From: Opitutaceae bacterium | GTDB taxonomy: Bacteria; Verrucomicrobiota; Verrucomicrobiia; Opitutales; Opitutaceae | Reading direction: 5' to 3' | Length of the DNA: 64,000 nucleotides | NCBI GenBank assembly: GCA_028280945.1 | Contig: JANQKV010000042.1 | Span: 62,001-126,000, forward strand | Notes under the pieces: model-generated | Seen by the model: only the letters and a program-made list of their open reading frames with translations | The model's database searches: none | Told to the model about the DNA's origin: nothing | Shown here: positions 1,597 to 51,183 of the stretch, in pieces | Layout of the letters: each line of letters begins with the position of its first letter | Position numbering within the stretch: the stretch's first letter is position 1 | Made by a program: the position numbers and the translations under genes

Positions 1597-1916
1597 GGAG
1601 CGGAAACGTTAGGGTCCGCGAACAGGCGCAAGAAAGCACAAAACGACTTCCAAAGTTGTGGACATCGCGGCGGGTCGCGAAGAAGGAAGCAAGCTAACGG
1701 ATGGACGGTGGTCTGATCCGGAACTGGGGGTGAAATCGCCAATTGGCCTCTACCTTTCAGGTGGCTGTCCGGGATGTGCACAGGGTTGGGCGCCAAGCTG
1801 CTTAAGCTCCGCTTAATGAATAAAGTGTTTTCTTTGTGACCGTGGATTTCGTCGCCGCCACTCAGTGACTGTCCCTCCCGGCATACCATACCCCTGTTCT
1901 CCCCTTCTTCGCTCTC
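1597..1916. other. Intergenic region between divergent genes
   Basis: These 320 bases separate the minus-strand phosphodiesterase from the plus-strand PEP-CTERM gene and must hold both promoters. I see no RNA gene, no strong inverted repeat and no convincing coding frame. The AT-richest stretch is around 1805-1840, the likeliest place for the PEP-CTERM promoter, but no clear -35/-10 pair can be claimed. Confidence 0.4.
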
Positions 1917-2648
1917 ATGAAAGCCCGACCTGCGACTCCTATTCCTCTCCAAACCGCGCCGACCGTGAAGACAGGTTTGGCGTCACTTGTCGCCTTGGGC
2001 GCGGCCCAGGCCGCCCATGCCCAGATCGTGATGTCCACCACCCTCCCAGACGCAAACGGAGGTCGACCACCCTTGACCCACGGTTTCGTGGATTGGGATG
2101 TGGATAATGATGGCACAGCCGATTTTCGCTTCAGAAACTACGACACCTACTACGCTCAGTTCACCGAATTGAATGGTGGGCGAATTTTCGGTCTCGTTGG
2201 GAGCTTGGCGGATCCGTTCCAAAAACTCAACTTTGGCCAGACCATCGGTCCCAGTGTGCCAGGATACGGCTTTGCGGCGAATGCCCAATACGGATCCATA
2301 ACTGGTTCCGGCCTTCATGTGGTTGAGGGAGCTCAAAGAGGTGGTTGGGCATCGGGGACGACGGGTAATGCTATTGGTTTGGGAACGACTGGCTACCTTG
2401 GTTTCCGATTCACTACCAACGGTGGTTCGGACACACATTATGGCTGGGCCAATGTGACAATTGATGGATTAGATGACGGTGGCTACGGCTACATCTTCAA
2501 TGAAGCCTACTACAACACCACACCGGGAGCCTCGATCACGGCAGGCGCGGTTCCAGAGCCTGCGGCCGCAGCCACGGGGCTTGGATTCCTGGCCTTGGGT
2601 GCGGCAGGACTGCGCCGCCAACGCTGGCTGCAGCGGAACAGGGGCTGA
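1917..2648 (+). CDS. PEP-CTERM-like sorting domain protein
   Basis: The protein has 243 residues. An N-terminal signal peptide (hydrophobic residues about 20-34, ending AQAAHA) suggests export. The C-terminus has the PEP-CTERM layout: VPEP, a short hydrophobic helix (GLGFLALGAAGL), then an Arg-rich end (RRQRWLQRNRG). Such tails are recognised by exosortase-type systems; no exosortase is in this window. The middle is Gly/Thr/Asn-rich and contains YLGFRFTTNGG...YGWANVTI, a motif shared with the two downstream PEP-CTERM proteins (YVGFQFNPSG...YGWAEVTF), so all three belong to one family. The body is otherwise diverged. The start was chosen because the signal peptide begins there; no Shine-Dalgarno is evident. 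Function is unknown, probably an extracellular or surface matrix protein. Confidence 0.85.
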   Translation: MKARPATPIPLQTAPTVKTGLASLVALGAAQAAHAQIVMSTTLPDANGGRPPLTHGFVDWDVDNDGTADFRFRNYDTYYAQFTELNGGRIFGLVGSLADPFQKLNFGQTIGPSVPGYGFAANAQYGSITGSGLHVVEGAQRGGWASGTTGNAIGLGTTGYLGFRFTTNGGSDTHYGWANVTIDGLDDGGYGYIFNEAYYNTTPGASITAGAVPEPAAAATGLGFLALGAAGLRRQRWLQRNRG

Positions 2649-2706
2649 GATCAGGTTCGAACTCACTTCATGCATTCCTGATTTCCAGATCTATTTCCGA
2701 ACGAAC

Positions 2707-2735
2707 AAAAGCGCTCCATTTCGGGGCGCTTTTAT
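2707..2735. terminator. Bidirectional intrinsic terminator
   Basis: The arms gcgctcc (2711-2717) and ggggcgc (2723-2729) pair with one G-T wobble. The hairpin is flanked by AAAA on the left and TTTTA on the right, so it can work for the plus-strand PEP-CTERM gene ending at 2648 and the minus-strand gene ending at 2780. A related hairpin lies at 3857-3883. Confidence 0.7.
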
Positions 2736-2779
2736 TGTAGGTTTTGAATTTGGAAATCAGGAAAGCTGGAACTCTCAAA

Positions 2780-3508
2780 TTAGGGTTGTCGGCGATTGCG
2801 TTTAAGCCAGCGAGAGCGGCGCAGGCCGGCGGCGCCGAGGGCGAGCAGGCCCAAGCCTGTGGCCGCGGCGGCGGGCTCGGGGACAGCACCGACTTGGATG
2901 GCGGCGCCGGAGTCGTCGTAGGCCCAACGGTGCACGGTGATCGAACCTTGGTTGGCGGTGGTGAACGTGACCTCGGCCCAACCGTAGAGCGTCAGCGAGC
3001 CCGACGGATTGAATTGAAAGCCCACGTAGCTGGTGTTCCCAAAGACAAACCCGGTGGCACTTTTAAAATACAAGGAGATGCTATTCTGGGCGTAGGAATA
3101 CAGGAGCGACGAGACCTGGCTGGCCTTGAAATTCAGGTTCGTTCCCACCATCTGACCAGGACCATTCGAGAGGGCGAGCAGCTTGCCTCCTCCGTTGGTG
3201 GCAATCCCGACGACTCCTCCGCTAGGAGCCAGGTGCATGTAGGCGGCGCTCGACGTGGTGCCCGAATTGAAAGCGAAAGAGAATTCATTTCCCCCGGAAC
3301 CGTCGATGTTCCAGGAACCGTTCCACGGGGCATCGGCGCCGTTGGTCACGTTCCCGGAGAAGCTGTCCAGGCTGTCATCAAAAACGATGATATTGGCACT
3401 GGCGTTGGCGGCACTTACCAGAGCCATCAAGGACCCCGTGCCGAATGCTCCGACAGAGGTGAGTCGTTTCGGAGAGGAGGAAACTGTTGGATTGGATGGA
3501 GAGGACAT
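2780..3508 (-). CDS. PEP-CTERM-like protein, duplicate copy 1
   Basis: The protein has 242 residues from the ATG at 3508. A signal peptide ends near AANASA (about residue 33) and the C-terminus has VPEP, a hydrophobic helix and RRSRWLKRNRRQP. An upstream in-frame ATG at 3556 was rejected: in the paralogue at 3934-4662 a one-base indel in a poly-T/poly-G run (3532-3543 here) changes the frame upstream, so only the sequence from the internal ATG is in the same frame in both copies. It is very similar to that paralogue, the differences clustering around residues 70-130. Expected to be exported and anchored or processed by an exosortase-type pathway encoded elsewhere. Function is unknown. Confidence 0.85.
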   Translation of the reverse strand: MSSPSNPTVSSSPKRLTSVGAFGTGSLMALVSAANASANIIVFDDSLDSFSGNVTNGADAPWNGSWNIDGSGGNEFSFAFNSGTTSSAAYMHLAPSGGVVGIATNGGGKLLALSNGPGQMVGTNLNFKASQVSSLLYSYAQNSISLYFKSATGFVFGNTSYVGFQFNPSGSLTLYGWAEVTFTTANQGSITVHRWAYDDSGAAIQVGAVPEPAAAATGLGLLALGAAGLRRSRWLKRNRRQP

Positions 3509-3751
3509 CGGGTCTGAGCTTGTTCTGTCGGGTTTTTTTGGGGCGGTAATTGCCATAGCCGCGGGAACGAAAGTTCAACTGGGCCAATATGAAAACAGAT
3601 ATGCCGACCTGCGGAGTGCCGGCTCTCGCCATCATAGCAGAATGAAGCTGAAGCAGACCTGAAGCTCAGGACTTTGGATCTCGGTATATCCGAAATTATC
3701 GCACGGTTAGTCTTTTCCTCAGGTGTGATGGTCGCCTTAAGTCATTTCCGC

Positions 3752-3826
3752 ATGAGAGTGCTTGTGGTTGAAGATGAACCCACCATCCGGTCCCAGCTGG
3801 TCAAGGTGCTGCGGAACAAAAAATAA
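3752..3826 (+). pseudogene. Truncated response-regulator 5' fragment (24 codons)
   Basis: The ATG at 3752 opens a frame beginning MRVLVVEDEPTIRSQL, then VKVLRNKK and a stop at 3824-3826. The first ~20 codons match the intact regulator at 4905-5573 almost base for base (Leu-Val for Leu-Cys at residues 16-17). Similarity ends at the duplication junction, followed by unrelated bases and a stop. It is a by-product of the tandem duplication. The peptide could still be translated because its upstream region is also duplicated, but it holds only the first strand and acidic pocket of a receiver domain. Confidence 0.85.
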
Positions 3827-3856
3827 GTTCTGCCTGCTTCCCTGATTTTGAAACAG

Positions 3857-3883
3857 AAGCGCCCCGGGATAGGGCGCTTTTTT
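3857..3883. terminator. Intrinsic terminator between regulator remnant and PEP-CTERM copy 2
   Basis: The arms aagcgccc (3857-3864) and gggcgctt (3872-3879) are perfectly complementary, with a 7-base loop and a run of six T on the plus strand. It is the counterpart of the hairpin at 2707-2735 and marks the left part of duplication copy 2. Confidence 0.75.
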
Positions 3884-3933
3884 GTAGGGTATTATACCTG
3901 GAGATCAGGTGGACAGGGATCCATGAACCAAGG

Positions 3934-4662
3934 TCAGCCTCGATTCCGCTTCAGCCAACGCTTGCGGCGCAGGCCGGCGGCGCCGAGGGCGAGCAGACCC
4001 AATCCCGTGGCCGCGGCGGCTGGCTCGGGGACAGCGCCGACTTGGATGGCGGCGCCGGAGTCGTCGTAGGCCCAACGGTGCACGGTGATCGAACCTTGGT
4101 TGTCGGCGGTGAATGTGACCTCGGCCCAACCGTAGAGTGTCAGCGAGCCCGACGGATTGAATTGAAAGCCCAAGTAGCTGGTATTCCCAAAGGTAAATCC
4201 GGTGGCATTTTTAAAATACAAGGAGATGCTGTTTTGGGCGTAGGAATAAAGGAGCGATGAGATCGAATTGGTGGACTTGAAATTCAGGTTTGTTCCCACC
4301 ATCTGACCGGGACCATTCGAGAGGGCGAGCAGCTTGCCTCCTGCTCCGGTAGCAATCCCGTTGCCTGCTCCATTAGGAGCCAGGAGCATATAGGCGGGGC
4401 TCGAGGCGGTGATCGGATTATTAAAACTGAACCTGAATTCTCTTCCCCCGGAACCGTCGACATTCCAGTCACCGTTCCACGGGGCATCGGCGCCGTTGGT
4501 CACGTTCCCGGAGAAACTGTCCAAACTGTCATCAAAAACGATGATATTGGCACTGGCGTTGGCGGCGGTCACCAAGGCCACCAAGGATCCGGCGCCGAAT
4601 GCTCCGACAGAGGTGAGTCGTTTCGGAGAGGAGGAATCTGTGGGATTGGATAGAGAGGACAT
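3934..4662 (-). CDS. PEP-CTERM-like protein, duplicate copy 2
   Basis: The protein has 242 residues, the same length as copy 1. A signal peptide ends near AANASA, and the tail is VPEP, a hydrophobic helix and RRKRWLKRNRG. The start at 4662 is set by comparison with copy 1, since upstream frames differ between copies. It is transcribed divergently from the response regulator at 4905 through a 242-base region, a layout that suggests control by that regulator (inference). Substitutions relative to copy 1 are mostly in the middle of the protein, while the signal and sorting regions are conserved. Confidence 0.85.
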   Translation of the reverse strand: MSSLSNPTDSSSPKRLTSVGAFGAGSLVALVTAANASANIIVFDDSLDSFSGNVTNGADAPWNGDWNVDGSGGREFRFSFNNPITASSPAYMLLAPNGAGNGIATGAGGKLLALSNGPGQMVGTNLNFKSTNSISSLLYSYAQNSISLYFKNATGFTFGNTSYLGFQFNPSGSLTLYGWAEVTFTADNQGSITVHRWAYDDSGAAIQVGAVPEPAAAATGLGLLALGAAGLRRKRWLKRNRG

Positions 4663-4904
4663 CGGGTCTGAGCTTGTTCTGGCGGATTTTTTTGGGCGGT
4701 AATTGCCATAGCCGCGGGAACGAACGTTCAAACTGGGCCAATGTGAAAACAGGCATGCCGACCTGCGGAATGCCGGCTCTCGCCATCTTAGCAGAATGAA
4801 GCTGAAGCAGACCTGAAGCGGTGGACTTTGGGTCGCGATTTATCCGCATTACCGCACGGTTAGGCTTTTCCTCAGGTGTGGTGGTCGCCTTAAGTCATTT
4901 CCGC

Positions 4905-5573
4905 ATGAGAGTGCTTGTGGTTGAAGATGAACCCACCATCCGGTCCCAGCTTTGCAAGGTGCTGCGAGGTGAAAATTATGCCGTCGATGAAGCAGAGGAT
5001 GGTGAGGTTGCGCTCTACAAGGTAGCTGAATGGCCCTACGACTTGGTGGTCCTCGATGTGATGATGCCAAACATCGATGGATTTGAGGTGGTGCGGTGCA
5101 TGCGGGAAAAGAAGATTGATGCCGCCGTGCTCATATTGACGGCCCGGGGCGGGGTGGAAGATCGGGTGCGCGGGTTGGACCTTGGCGCCGACGACTATTT
5201 AAAGAAGGGCTTCGAACTTCAGGAGTTCAAAGCCCGGGTGCGGGCTTTGTTGCGCCGGAAGAAGCAGGTGTTTAAGAACAAGCTGCGAGCTCGGGACGTG
5301 GAGCTCGACCTCGCCACCGGACAGGTCGAAAAGGCAGGCCGGCCGGTCAACCTAACCGGCCGGGAATACGCCATCCTGGTAGAGCTCATGAGCCAGCCCG
5401 GAGCGGTGGTGCCCCGTCACCAACTCTACGAAGGAGTGGTCGATGAGTCGGACGACTCGATTTCAAATCCGCTCGAAGTCCATGTCTGCAACCTACGCCG
5501 AAAGCTCGGCAAAGACTTCGTGCGCACCTTCCGGGGGCGGGGTTACGCTCTCAACGTGGAGTCGACCGAATGA
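4905..5573 (+). CDS. OmpR-family response regulator
   Basis: The protein has 222 residues. The receiver domain (1-115) has the acidic pocket E7-D8, the phosphoacceptor D51 (VVLDVMMP) and the conserved Lys K101. The usual cis-Pro after that Lys is Gly (LKKGF instead of the common TKPF). A winged-helix OmpR/PhoB DNA-binding domain follows (about 130-220; LTGREYAILVELM...NPLEVHVCNLRRKLG). The start at 4905 is confirmed because the duplicated copy is aligned from there. Its stop overlaps the kinase start by 4 bases (ATGA), so the two are translationally coupled. It acts in the cytoplasm as the transcriptional output of the kinase at 5570; the divergent PEP-CTERM gene is a candidate target. Confidence 0.93.
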   Translation: MRVLVVEDEPTIRSQLCKVLRGENYAVDEAEDGEVALYKVAEWPYDLVVLDVMMPNIDGFEVVRCMREKKIDAAVLILTARGGVEDRVRGLDLGADDYLKKGFELQEFKARVRALLRRKKQVFKNKLRARDVELDLATGQVEKAGRPVNLTGREYAILVELMSQPGAVVPRHQLYEGVVDESDDSISNPLEVHVCNLRRKLGKDFVRTFRGRGYALNVESTE

Positions 5574-7087
5574 AACCGTATCGTTCCCTGCGTTCGCAGA
5601 TCGAACTGGGGCAGTTGGGACTCCTGGCGGTTGTCGTGCTGGTGCTGTTGGTGGGATTCTATATTTACGAAAGACGCGTGCGGCTGGAGAACATCGATCT
5701 CACGCTTTCCGTGCCGGAGTCCCGACTATTGGCGGCGCACATCATATTACCGCGGGCGGATGCGCGCTCCCTGCGGGTTCAGGCGGTCCGTCCACGCGAG
5801 CGCGGTTCTGCGGTGGAACGGTTGTCGAGAGGATCGAGTGATGGCGCGGCGGGGGTGGCGGAGGCTGCCTCGTTGCCCTGGTCGAGGGGTTCAGACACTC
5901 CTCGCCTGCGTGCCTTGGAGACGGTCGAACTGCTGGAAGCCGGGCAATTATATGCCCTCGTCTGGCGGGGAAGGGAAGGCTTGGTGTTTTCCTATGGCGT
6001 GGACGATGCCGAGTCGTTCGAAAAGCCCGCCGTCAGCGACCATGGCGAGGGACGAACCTACCGGTGGCGTGGCTCGGACCGCGAATTGATCTACATCGGT
6101 CGTCGCGGAGAGACCATTGTGGTGGGGAAAGCGGGTGTCTCCATTGATGCCGAACTTGCGACCTTTGGCTGGGGACTGGCCGGGGTGGGCGTGGTTGTGC
6201 TGCTCCTGGGCGCCCTGCGGGGGCGGGTGACCAGTGGCCGGGTCTTGAGGCCGGTCGAAAGAATATCCCGCACGGCCCGTCGAATCGCCGAGGGTGACCT
6301 GAGCGAGCGTATTGATGAATCGGATACAGAGGACGAATTGAACGAACTGGCGAAGGTGCTCAACACCACCTTTGCCCGATTGGCGGATGCGCTGGAACGC
6401 CAGATCAAGTTCTCGGCCGACGCATCCCATGAACTGCTGACCCCTGCATCCATCATCCTGACCGAATGCCAGTGGGCTTTGGACAGGGCCCGTGAATTGG
6501 AGGACTGTCATTCGAGTTTCGCCACCTGCGAAAAAGCCGCCCGCCACATGCGTGATTTGATCGAAGCACTGTTGGAACTCTCCCGGATGGATGCGGAGGA
6601 AACCCCCCTCACCGTGGCTCCGGTCCGGTTGCGGGATCTGATGGAGGAAGCCCAGGAGCTGTTGACCGGACTGGCTGAACGGCGCGGGGTTCGATTGGAT
6701 TTTCAGGTGCATGACGTCTCTTTCACGGCGGATGGGGGAAAGATCCGGCAGGTTGTCATTAATCTGGTGAACAATGCCATTCACCACAGCCCGGCGGAAG
6801 GGGTGGTCCGCGTAACCGGACGAGTGGACGGCCCCGATGTCATCATTGAAGTTGCCGACGAGGGACCAGGTATAGCGGAAGCGGAACATGCCAAGATCTT
6901 CGATCGGTTTTACCGGACCGACAAAGCACGCTCACGAGAACGCGGGGGCAGTGGACTGGGCCTGGCGATCAGCCTTGTCATTGCACGAGCCCATGGCGGC
7001 GACTTGACCGTCCGGTCGGCGCCGGACGAGGGCAGTTGTTTCATCCTGTCGGTTCCGGTCGTGTCGAAAACGCCGGTGACCACGTAA
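5570..7087 (+). CDS. Membrane sensor histidine kinase
   Basis: The protein has 505 residues: TM1 (about 12-36), an extracytoplasmic sensor region of ~155 residues, TM2 (about 195-216), a HAMP linker, a HisKA dimerisation domain with the phosphorylated His at H287 (FSADASHELLTP), and a HATPase_c domain (N box NLVNNAIHHSP, then DEGPGIAE and GGSGLGLAI). The H-box differs from the usual SHELRTPL: Leu replaces Arg and Ala replaces the Leu after Pro. It should phosphorylate the regulator at 4905. The signal is unknown; the sensor domain has no recognisable fold from sequence alone. The next gene is convergent and 96 bases away. Confidence 0.93.
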   Translation: MKPYRSLRSQIELGQLGLLAVVVLVLLVGFYIYERRVRLENIDLTLSVPESRLLAAHIILPRADARSLRVQAVRPRERGSAVERLSRGSSDGAAGVAEAASLPWSRGSDTPRLRALETVELLEAGQLYALVWRGREGLVFSYGVDDAESFEKPAVSDHGEGRTYRWRGSDRELIYIGRRGETIVVGKAGVSIDAELATFGWGLAGVGVVVLLLGALRGRVTSGRVLRPVERISRTARRIAEGDLSERIDESDTEDELNELAKVLNTTFARLADALERQIKFSADASHELLTPASIILTECQWALDRARELEDCHSSFATCEKAARHMRDLIEALLELSRMDAEETPLTVAPVRLRDLMEEAQELLTGLAERRGVRLDFQVHDVSFTADGGKIRQVVINLVNNAIHHSPAEGVVRVTGRVDGPDVIIEVADEGPGIAEAEHAKIFDRFYRTDKARSRERGGSGLGLAISLVIARAHGGDLTVRSAPDEGSCFILSVPVVSKTPVTT

Positions 7088-7183
7088 GACCCACCATGAT
7101 GCGGCGGTTACGGCGGTGAGTTAAAATCCTGATCGTTTTGGTTGGTTTCCGCCGGCCCGACGAATGCCGTTTGCTGGGGAAAA

Positions 7184-16321: not shown

Positions 16322-17335
16322 ATGCGAAATTGGATGTTCTTGGTCATATTGTTGGCGGTGATCACCGCAGGAGCGGTCAAGGCGGTCGACCTGAGCGAGC
16401 TCGCTGAAACGGTGGGTCTGACGGAATTGGCTGCGACGTTCGACGAGGCCAAGGTAGACCGCATCATCGGCGAATATGGCGCACGATTGGAGGATCCCGC
16501 GGAGCGTGCCGCCGCCGCTGCGTTGGTGACCATGGGCATGGTCAAGGACTGGGCCTTGGAAGATCCCGACCTGACCGCGCGGATGCTGGTGGGATGGGAC
16601 AACCCTCCGGGCAAAGGCGTCGGCACGACCGAAATGTCGCTGCTTCGCCCGGCGGGCATCATGCGTGTCGCCTCGTTTGGTGGCCACGAAGCCCTGCGGC
16701 AGGACACCAAGCTGATCGCAGCGTTGGATGCCGCCATCGGGGCCGAGGTATTAACCGGTTACGGACTACGACCTCGGGGGGTGAGCTCTGCGACCAAAGC
16801 CGACCGTACCGTCATCTACTCCCACAGCAGCTTGCCGCACGTGAAGCAGTTGATCGGCTTGATGGCGAGTGAAGGGCTTGAGGGGCGCCTCCTGATCGCC
16901 CCGAAAGTGGCGGCTTTTGTCTTTCGGGAAGGCTGGGGGGAGCGGCCGGAATGGATCAATGAACTGGGGGATGGCGTTTACGTTGCCCAGGGCCCGGAGA
17001 TGTTGGTCCATTTTGAAATGGCCACGCCGGGAGATCGCCAACGTTTCGACGAGTTGGTCGACCGCTACGCGAAAAAGGATGAGGCGGAGGAAACGGGCAA
17101 CCTGGTCCGCTCCTGGTGGCAGCCGTTTTACTACTGCGAGTCCGAAGCGGAAGGGTATCAGCAGATCTCGCGCGTCACGCTTTTGGGCGAGGAAGTCGAG
17201 GCGTCACTGCTCATGTTGACCGAGCGGGAACAACGGGTGCGTGATCACTTTGCTGAGCAGGATTGGGAGATGGAAGTCGACTCGATTTGGGTCAGCACCC
17301 CGTTCTTCCGTTTCCTCGAGGGCGACTACAAGTAG
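16322..17335 (+). CDS. Exported or membrane-anchored protein of unknown function
   Basis: The protein has 337 residues. The ATG at 16322 is followed by a signal peptide or anchor (MFLVILLAVITAGAVKA), then an acidic, mixed alpha/beta body with no motif I recognise. It contains VIYSHSSLPHVKQLIGLMASEGLEG and a C-terminal FFRFLEGDYK; three Cys-poor regions and several Trp (WWQPFYYCESEAEG near residue 275). An upstream ATG (16271) would lack a clean signal. It is divergent from sodN and may share the palindromic operator. Function cannot be assigned. Confidence 0.75.
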   Translation: MRNWMFLVILLAVITAGAVKAVDLSELAETVGLTELAATFDEAKVDRIIGEYGARLEDPAERAAAAALVTMGMVKDWALEDPDLTARMLVGWDNPPGKGVGTTEMSLLRPAGIMRVASFGGHEALRQDTKLIAALDAAIGAEVLTGYGLRPRGVSSATKADRTVIYSHSSLPHVKQLIGLMASEGLEGRLLIAPKVAAFVFREGWGERPEWINELGDGVYVAQGPEMLVHFEMATPGDRQRFDELVDRYAKKDEAEETGNLVRSWWQPFYYCESEAEGYQQISRVTLLGEEVEASLLMLTEREQRVRDHFAEQDWEMEVDSIWVSTPFFRFLEGDYK

Positions 17336-51100: not shown

Positions 51101-51183
51101 TCCCGGAGAAGTAAGCCAAGGCTCCAATGTCCAAAGATTAATGATATCTTAATCAATGATATGGTTTGATGGGTTGGCTCGAC

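Follow-up and report, generated by a model that had tools for sequence, protein, structure and literature searches.

A tandem duplication in a PEP-CTERM gene island of an Opitutaceae bacterium and a candidate PmrA-like regulator of PEP-CTERM genes

Two closely similar PEP-CTERM-type genes of an Opitutaceae bacterium lie beside a two-component system, and the first codons of its response regulator gene are found a second time between them. This raises the question of how the arrangement arose and whether the regulator controls genes of this type. The analyzed window is a stretch of 64,000 nucleotides, positions 62001-126000 of contig C20 in a 5.44-Mb draft genome, and coordinates are those of the window unless a locus name precedes them.

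The preliminary description proposed a tandem duplication of a PEP-CTERM gene together with its promoter region and the 5' end of the regulator gene. This was confirmed by a direct head-to-tail repeat with a unit of ∼1.15 kb (offset 1148-1154) and a DNA identity of 89%, and by a single BLASTN match of 1028 columns with 89.4% identity between 2793-3813 and 3941-4966. The repeat is far above chance expectation. Copy 1 spans 2671-3826, the left edge being approximate, and copy 2 spans 3835-4979, its right edge continuing into the intact regulator gene; neither is assigned to a strand. Both copies carry, on the minus strand, a PEP-CTERM-type gene of 242 codons with ∼245 bp of sequence upstream of it and, on the plus strand, the first part of a response regulator gene. 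In copy 1 the regulator frame closes as a stub of 24 codons; the full-length gene, with a histidine kinase gene behind it, is that of copy 2. Identity remains at about 92% in the ∼245-bp upstream region, so the low identity outside the PEP-CTERM gene that would point to independent gain is absent. A third, older PEP-CTERM-type paralogue, PEP3 (1917-2648, plus strand; 36% identical to PEP2), adjoins the repeat in convergent orientation to PEP1, and the region does, therefore, collect PEP-CTERM genes. Nevertheless, the view that related PEP-CTERM genes were inserted twice, independently, beside the regulator is scarcely credible, being refuted by the colinear identity that runs through the upstream region into the regulator reading frame.

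The breakpoints had been placed at two terminator hairpins, at 2707-2733 and 3857-3881 (neither assigned to a strand). However, the hairpins are internal to the unit rather than its ends, because homology passes through both of them: local alignment of the left flanks matches 2704-2761 with 3852-3909 (score 35, against a maximum of 25 in 500 shuffles). A further weak match, TGCwTyCCTGATTT, pairs 2671-2684 with 3835-3848 (p ∼0.02). At the new junction, around 3826-3835, no clear microhomology is left, the sequence being too eroded. The two hairpins are homologous, fold well on either strand, and lie 45-50 bp past the stop codons of PEP1 and PEP2, for which reasons they are most readily interpreted as bidirectional terminators of the unit, the first one likely serving both PEP1 and PEP3. 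A terminator scan reported neither, probably because the T runs sit within the stem, and a σ70 promoter scan gave nothing above chance. The hairpin behind PEP1 is enclosed by a longer inverted repeat at 2667-2771, TTCCTGATTTCCA / TGGAAATCAGGAA (z −7.7, minus strand), which is kept in part behind PEP2.

PEP1 (2780-3508, minus strand) and PEP2 (3934-4662, minus strand) are both 242 amino acids long, as first described, and 208 of 240 aligned residues are identical. PEP1 has an N-terminal hydrophobic signal, a VPEP motif, a transmembrane helix, and a RRSRWLKRNR tail, in agreement with the anatomy of PEP-CTERM proteins, in which an N-terminal signal is combined with a C-terminal PEP motif followed by a transmembrane helix and a basic cluster. 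VPEP, IPEP, or IPES is present in 13 of 13 aligned relatives. The predicted structure of PEP2 is poor (pLDDT 54) and unsuited to a fold search; helices are placed at residues 24-35 and 215-240 of this low-confidence model. None of PEP1, PEP2, and PEP3 reaches the curated cut-off of PF07589 or TIGR02595, and PEP-CTERM family models match them only weakly (NF038129, 15.4 bits for PEP2). A paralogue on contig C31, with a tail nearly identical to that of PEP1 and PEP2, scores 15.1 bits with PF07589. The genome has six exosortase loci above the PF09721 cut-off. The proteins thus resemble the PEP-CTERM/exosortase system in the signal region, the VPEP motif, the transmembrane helix, the basic tail, the many paralogues, the exosortases in the genome, and the rapid expansion within a lineage, but differ in the tail, VPEPAAAATGLGLLALGAAGLRR, a variant below the two cut-offs. 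Together the signals and the six exosortase genes suggest that PEP1 and PEP2 undergo export and that exosortase anchors or processes them. PEP-CTERM/exosortase (EpsH) sorting families show lineage-specific paralogous expansion (Haft 2006, PMC1569441), and as a case of PEP-CTERM family growth the present duplication is nothing unusual.

Relatives sought to date the duplication gave no homologue at E 1e-5 in 7 congeneric genomes; among other genera of the family a distant homologue was found in genome G008 only (36% identity). In G008 a PEP-CTERM motif (G008:C10:52523-52597) ends an open frame of 8781 amino acids. Between PEP1 and PEP2, Ks is 0.26 and Ka 0.089, giving a Ka/Ks of 0.34; in alignment columns 65-140, the middle of the proteins, the ratio is 0.73, as against 0.16-0.21 at the ends. 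PEP1 and PEP2 are thus under purifying selection, with a freer middle under relaxed constraint. The preliminary description hinted at diversification of the middle. More amino acid changes are indeed found there, but positive selection is not supported: relaxed constraint fits the region as well as selection does, since the ratio stays below 1. These values also bear on the reading that the duplication was neutral and nothing more, PEP1 and PEP2 being redundant, the adjacent regulator having unrelated targets, and the boxes of the cluster (described below) serving regulator autoregulation. A Ka/Ks of 0.34 with a freer middle fits drift under weak constraint, yet both frames are still open with intact signals at a Ks of 0.26. 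On the evidence as a whole, to which the boxes contribute, we consider this reading unlikely, although it deserves to be taken seriously.

The intact regulator (4905-5573, plus strand) is of the OmpR/PmrA type, with a receiver domain and a winged helix, and its gene overlaps by 4 bases that of a sensor histidine kinase with HAMP, HisKA, and HATPase_c domains (5570-7087, plus strand). It fits the OmpR/PhoB family (receiver, 2.2e-28; Trans_reg_C, 5e-19). The best NCBIfam model is PmrA (NF007928) at 211.8 bits, under the equivalog cut-off of 330. In the PDB, structures of PmrA/BasR rank with the best matches, and the recognition helix is largely conserved (SNPLEVHVCNLRRKLGK versus TNTLEVHIHNLREKIGK). 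A Lys-Gly pair (K101-G102) replaces the usual receiver Lys-Pro in three of three paralogous regulators (window 4905-5573, L035:12530-13210, and L035:13703-14371); the homologue in Puniceicoccaceae bacterium K14, a taxonomic neighbor, keeps Lys-Pro.

In copy 1 the regulator was correctly described as truncated. The stub (3754-3826, plus strand), translated as MRVLVVEDEPTIRSQLVKVLRNKK before its stop, comprises the start of a receiver domain only: at 20 of its first 21 codons the encoded residue agrees with that of the intact regulator, after which N-K-K and the stop follow. The longest perfect run between the copies, 70 bases at 3729-3798, covers the regulator leader and the stub start, and the flanking 3667-3722 differs at 16%. 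This could be taken to mean that the stub is functional, the leader and first codons being kept because they act, for example, within a promoter or give rise to a short transcript or peptide with a regulatory role. However, the run is only borderline in a permutation (p ∼0.05), gene conversion from the intact copy accounts for it equally well, and the stub has neither the phosphorylation aspartate nor a DNA-binding domain, so that a function for it appears improbable. Gene conversion is the simplest reading of the run, constraint on the leader being the alternative, and the stub itself is probably a passenger without function.

The duplicated pair belongs to a larger island. On the same contig, 9-10 kb to the left, lie two regulator paralogues, RRa (L035:12530-13210; 65% identical to the window regulator) and RRb (L035:13703-14371; 62%). 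They are accompanied by a kinase that shares 53% identity with that of the window and by two PEP-CTERM genes, of which one is oriented divergently from RRa. Behind the window kinase, at 7089-7124 (plus strand), the last codons of a small gene survive as a relic; the intact form of this gene follows the paralogous kinase (L035:16007-16483). Reciprocally, the paralogous kinase has behind it the C-terminal codons of a TonB receptor, the intact version of which lies in the window. The island has therefore grown through repeated local duplication, and the PEP1/PEP2 duplication is the most recent visible case. In the gap between RRa and RRb, the 3' terminal part of the neighboring TPR-sulfotransferase gene recurs as a 77% copy (L035:13275-13373 and 17158-17256), another duplication scar. 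Other tandem arrays were noted at L078 (G000:C4, 4862-10921), with four closely related PEP-CTERM genes of LamG-like appearance at a spacing of ∼1.7 kb, and at L199 (G000:C43, 733-4453), with two closely similar autotransporter-repeat proteins that have PEP-CTERM tails.

In Proteobacteria, PEP-CTERM genes are controlled by PrsK/PrsR with σ54 (PMC1569441, PMC9850573), and in a DAP-chip study of Desulfovibrio PrsR bound PEP-CTERM targets (PMC3333781). The PrsK/PrsR/σ54 motif was common to Proteobacteria only in the 2006 survey, the table of which gives 65 PEP-CTERM proteins for Verrucomicrobium spinosum and has none of PrsK, PrsR, and PrsT entered for it (PMC1569441). The window regulator has no AAA+/σ54 domain, its output being the winged helix, and is thus not of the PrsR (NtrC) type. 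The PmrA half-site of Salmonella is YTTAAK, arranged as a direct repeat (PMC10927774), and a canonical PmrA-like box, CTTAAG-CTCCG-CTTAAT (1801-1817, plus strand), lies 100 bp upstream of PEP3. Boxes are also found 23-24 bp before RRa and RRb.

The pattern CTTAA-N6-CTTAA occurs without mismatch at 9 positions, or 8 distinct places, in the 5.44 Mb, and five of the 9 positions fall within 9 kb around the island. At five of the 8 places, the one before PEP3 among them, the box is no more than 350 bp upstream of the start of a PEP-CTERM gene (gene set, n = 36; starts assigned by rule, a few by hand), where 0.02 would be expected for uniform placement and 0.06 if every box lay before some gene, the 350-bp distance having been picked after the first boxes had been seen and the gene number of 4600 used in the expectation being an estimate. 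With one mismatch allowed, 12 of 64 places are upstream of PEP-CTERM genes (expected, 0.17-0.5); among the matches listed for a reversed control pattern, the count is 0 of 90. When the island is excluded, the counts on contigs C1-C33 are 5 of 29 for the box and 0 of 87 for the control among the matches listed (Fisher p 0.0007). PEP-CTERM genes with an upstream box are found on contigs C10, C19, C31, C43, and C59, far from any regulator seen, which argues against boxes that serve autoregulation only, as a purely neutral duplication would have it. A box at 350 bp or less is lacking from about two thirds of the genome's PEP-CTERM genes.

Individual boxes vary in their surroundings. In the C43 array the exact box CTTAAGCTCTGCTTAAT lies 112 bp upstream of the first gene, with a divergent sensor kinase beyond it. 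The boxes on C34, at efflux genes, and on C56 show no link to PEP-CTERM genes; nor does a strong match in the window, ATTAATGATATCTTAAT (51137-51153, 20.5 bits), which adjoins a RecD-like helicase gene. The second kinase gene has an exact box within its 3' end (L035:15976-15992), just ahead of a 158-amino acid protein that belongs to no known family and is possibly another target.

The YTTAAK-N5-YTTAAK form is found at RRa, RRb, and PEP3 but is absent at the window regulator and in the upstream regions of PEP1 and PEP2, as would be expected had a neutral duplication carried no regulatory link. The upstream regions of PEP1 and PEP2 contain instead an identical direct repeat with an 11-bp period, CTGAAG-CAGAC-CTGAAG (3648-3664 and 4802-4818, both plus strand), a possible variant box; CTGAA-N6-CTGAA occurs only 10 times in the genome. 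The repeat scores 5.9 bits on the box matrix, compared with 17-23 for other boxes, and shuffled sequence attains the best matrix score of the duplicated regions in 14-17% of cases, so the repeat was rejected as a firm operator of PEP1 and PEP2. Control of the pair by the neighboring regulator, via CTGAAG-N5-CTGAAG or another site, is plausible but weakly supported, and is the least certain link of the regulon proposal.

Across regulator homologues, those of other Verrucomicrobiota included, a box lies within 300 bp at 12 of 93 loci (RRa and RRb among them), compared with 3 of 93 for the control. It is 35-50 bp before the homologues in G054, G031, G010, and Verrucomicrobiia TGS_VER2, and in L083 the distances are 89 and 150 bp. 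In strain K14 the gene immediately before the regulator homologue is a PEP-CTERM gene, and CTTAATCTAAACTTAAT stands ahead of that PEP-CTERM gene. Strain K14 is the only such case among 80 loci from named genomes, and adjacency of PEP-CTERM genes to these regulators was rejected as a general arrangement. The boxes in G054 and G044 are unconnected to PEP-CTERM genes, those of G054 being at the regulator, as a neutral duplication beside an autoregulated system would also predict. To judge by these boxes, autoregulation seems to have come first, and control over a large number of PEP-CTERM genes may be particular to certain lineages.

Taken together, a duplication with a passenger stub, combined with a PmrA-like two-component family that controls PEP-CTERM genes through boxes, is the explanation that we favor with moderate confidence. 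The ancestral layout would have been divergent, with a PEP-CTERM gene on the minus strand, a shared upstream region, and the response regulator and kinase genes on the plus strand. Tandem duplication of this layout, the right end of which lies inside the regulator gene as the repeat shows, left two complete surface-protein genes, each with a full upstream region, one intact regulator, and the stub as a probable passenger. The window kinase and regulator would be members of a local PmrA-like family that, judging by box placement, most likely binds CTTAA-N6-CTTAA and controls PEP-CTERM genes genome-wide, including PEP3, as well as its own paralogues.

The proposed family resembles PmrA/BasR (PMC10927774; PDB 4s04 and 8jo2) in domain architecture, recognition-helix sequence, and the half-site of its putative box, but differs in its score (212 versus the 330-bit equivalog cut-off), in its genome context and putative targets, and in the Gly for Pro after the receiver lysine. 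With PrsK-PrsR/σ54 it would share a two-component system and a cis site, here a candidate one predicted from sequence, before many PEP-CTERM genes. However, PrsR is an NtrC-type, σ54-dependent regulator of Proteobacteria, and the system described here would pair an OmpR/PmrA-type regulator with an 11-bp direct-repeat box. In a full-text search of open papers, control of PEP-CTERM genes by a regulator of the OmpR/PmrA type was not found, and in the literature on PEP-CTERM cis-regulatory sites only the proteobacterial site was found, none being described for Verrucomicrobiota as far as found. The regulon hypothesis is thus new as far as checked, and box placement lends it statistical support. 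We tentatively propose, while giving doubt at least equal room, that the PmrA-like family of the PEP-CTERM island is a dedicated PEP-CTERM regulator in Verrucomicrobiota that acts via CTTAA-N6-CTTAA in place of the proteobacterial PrsK/PrsR/σ54 system, and that local tandem duplication enlarges the sets of genes and regulators jointly, with PEP1 and PEP2 as the latest instance. PEP-CTERM proteins are numerous in Verrucomicrobiota, and a defined box together with a regulator family makes their switch open to a direct binding experiment.
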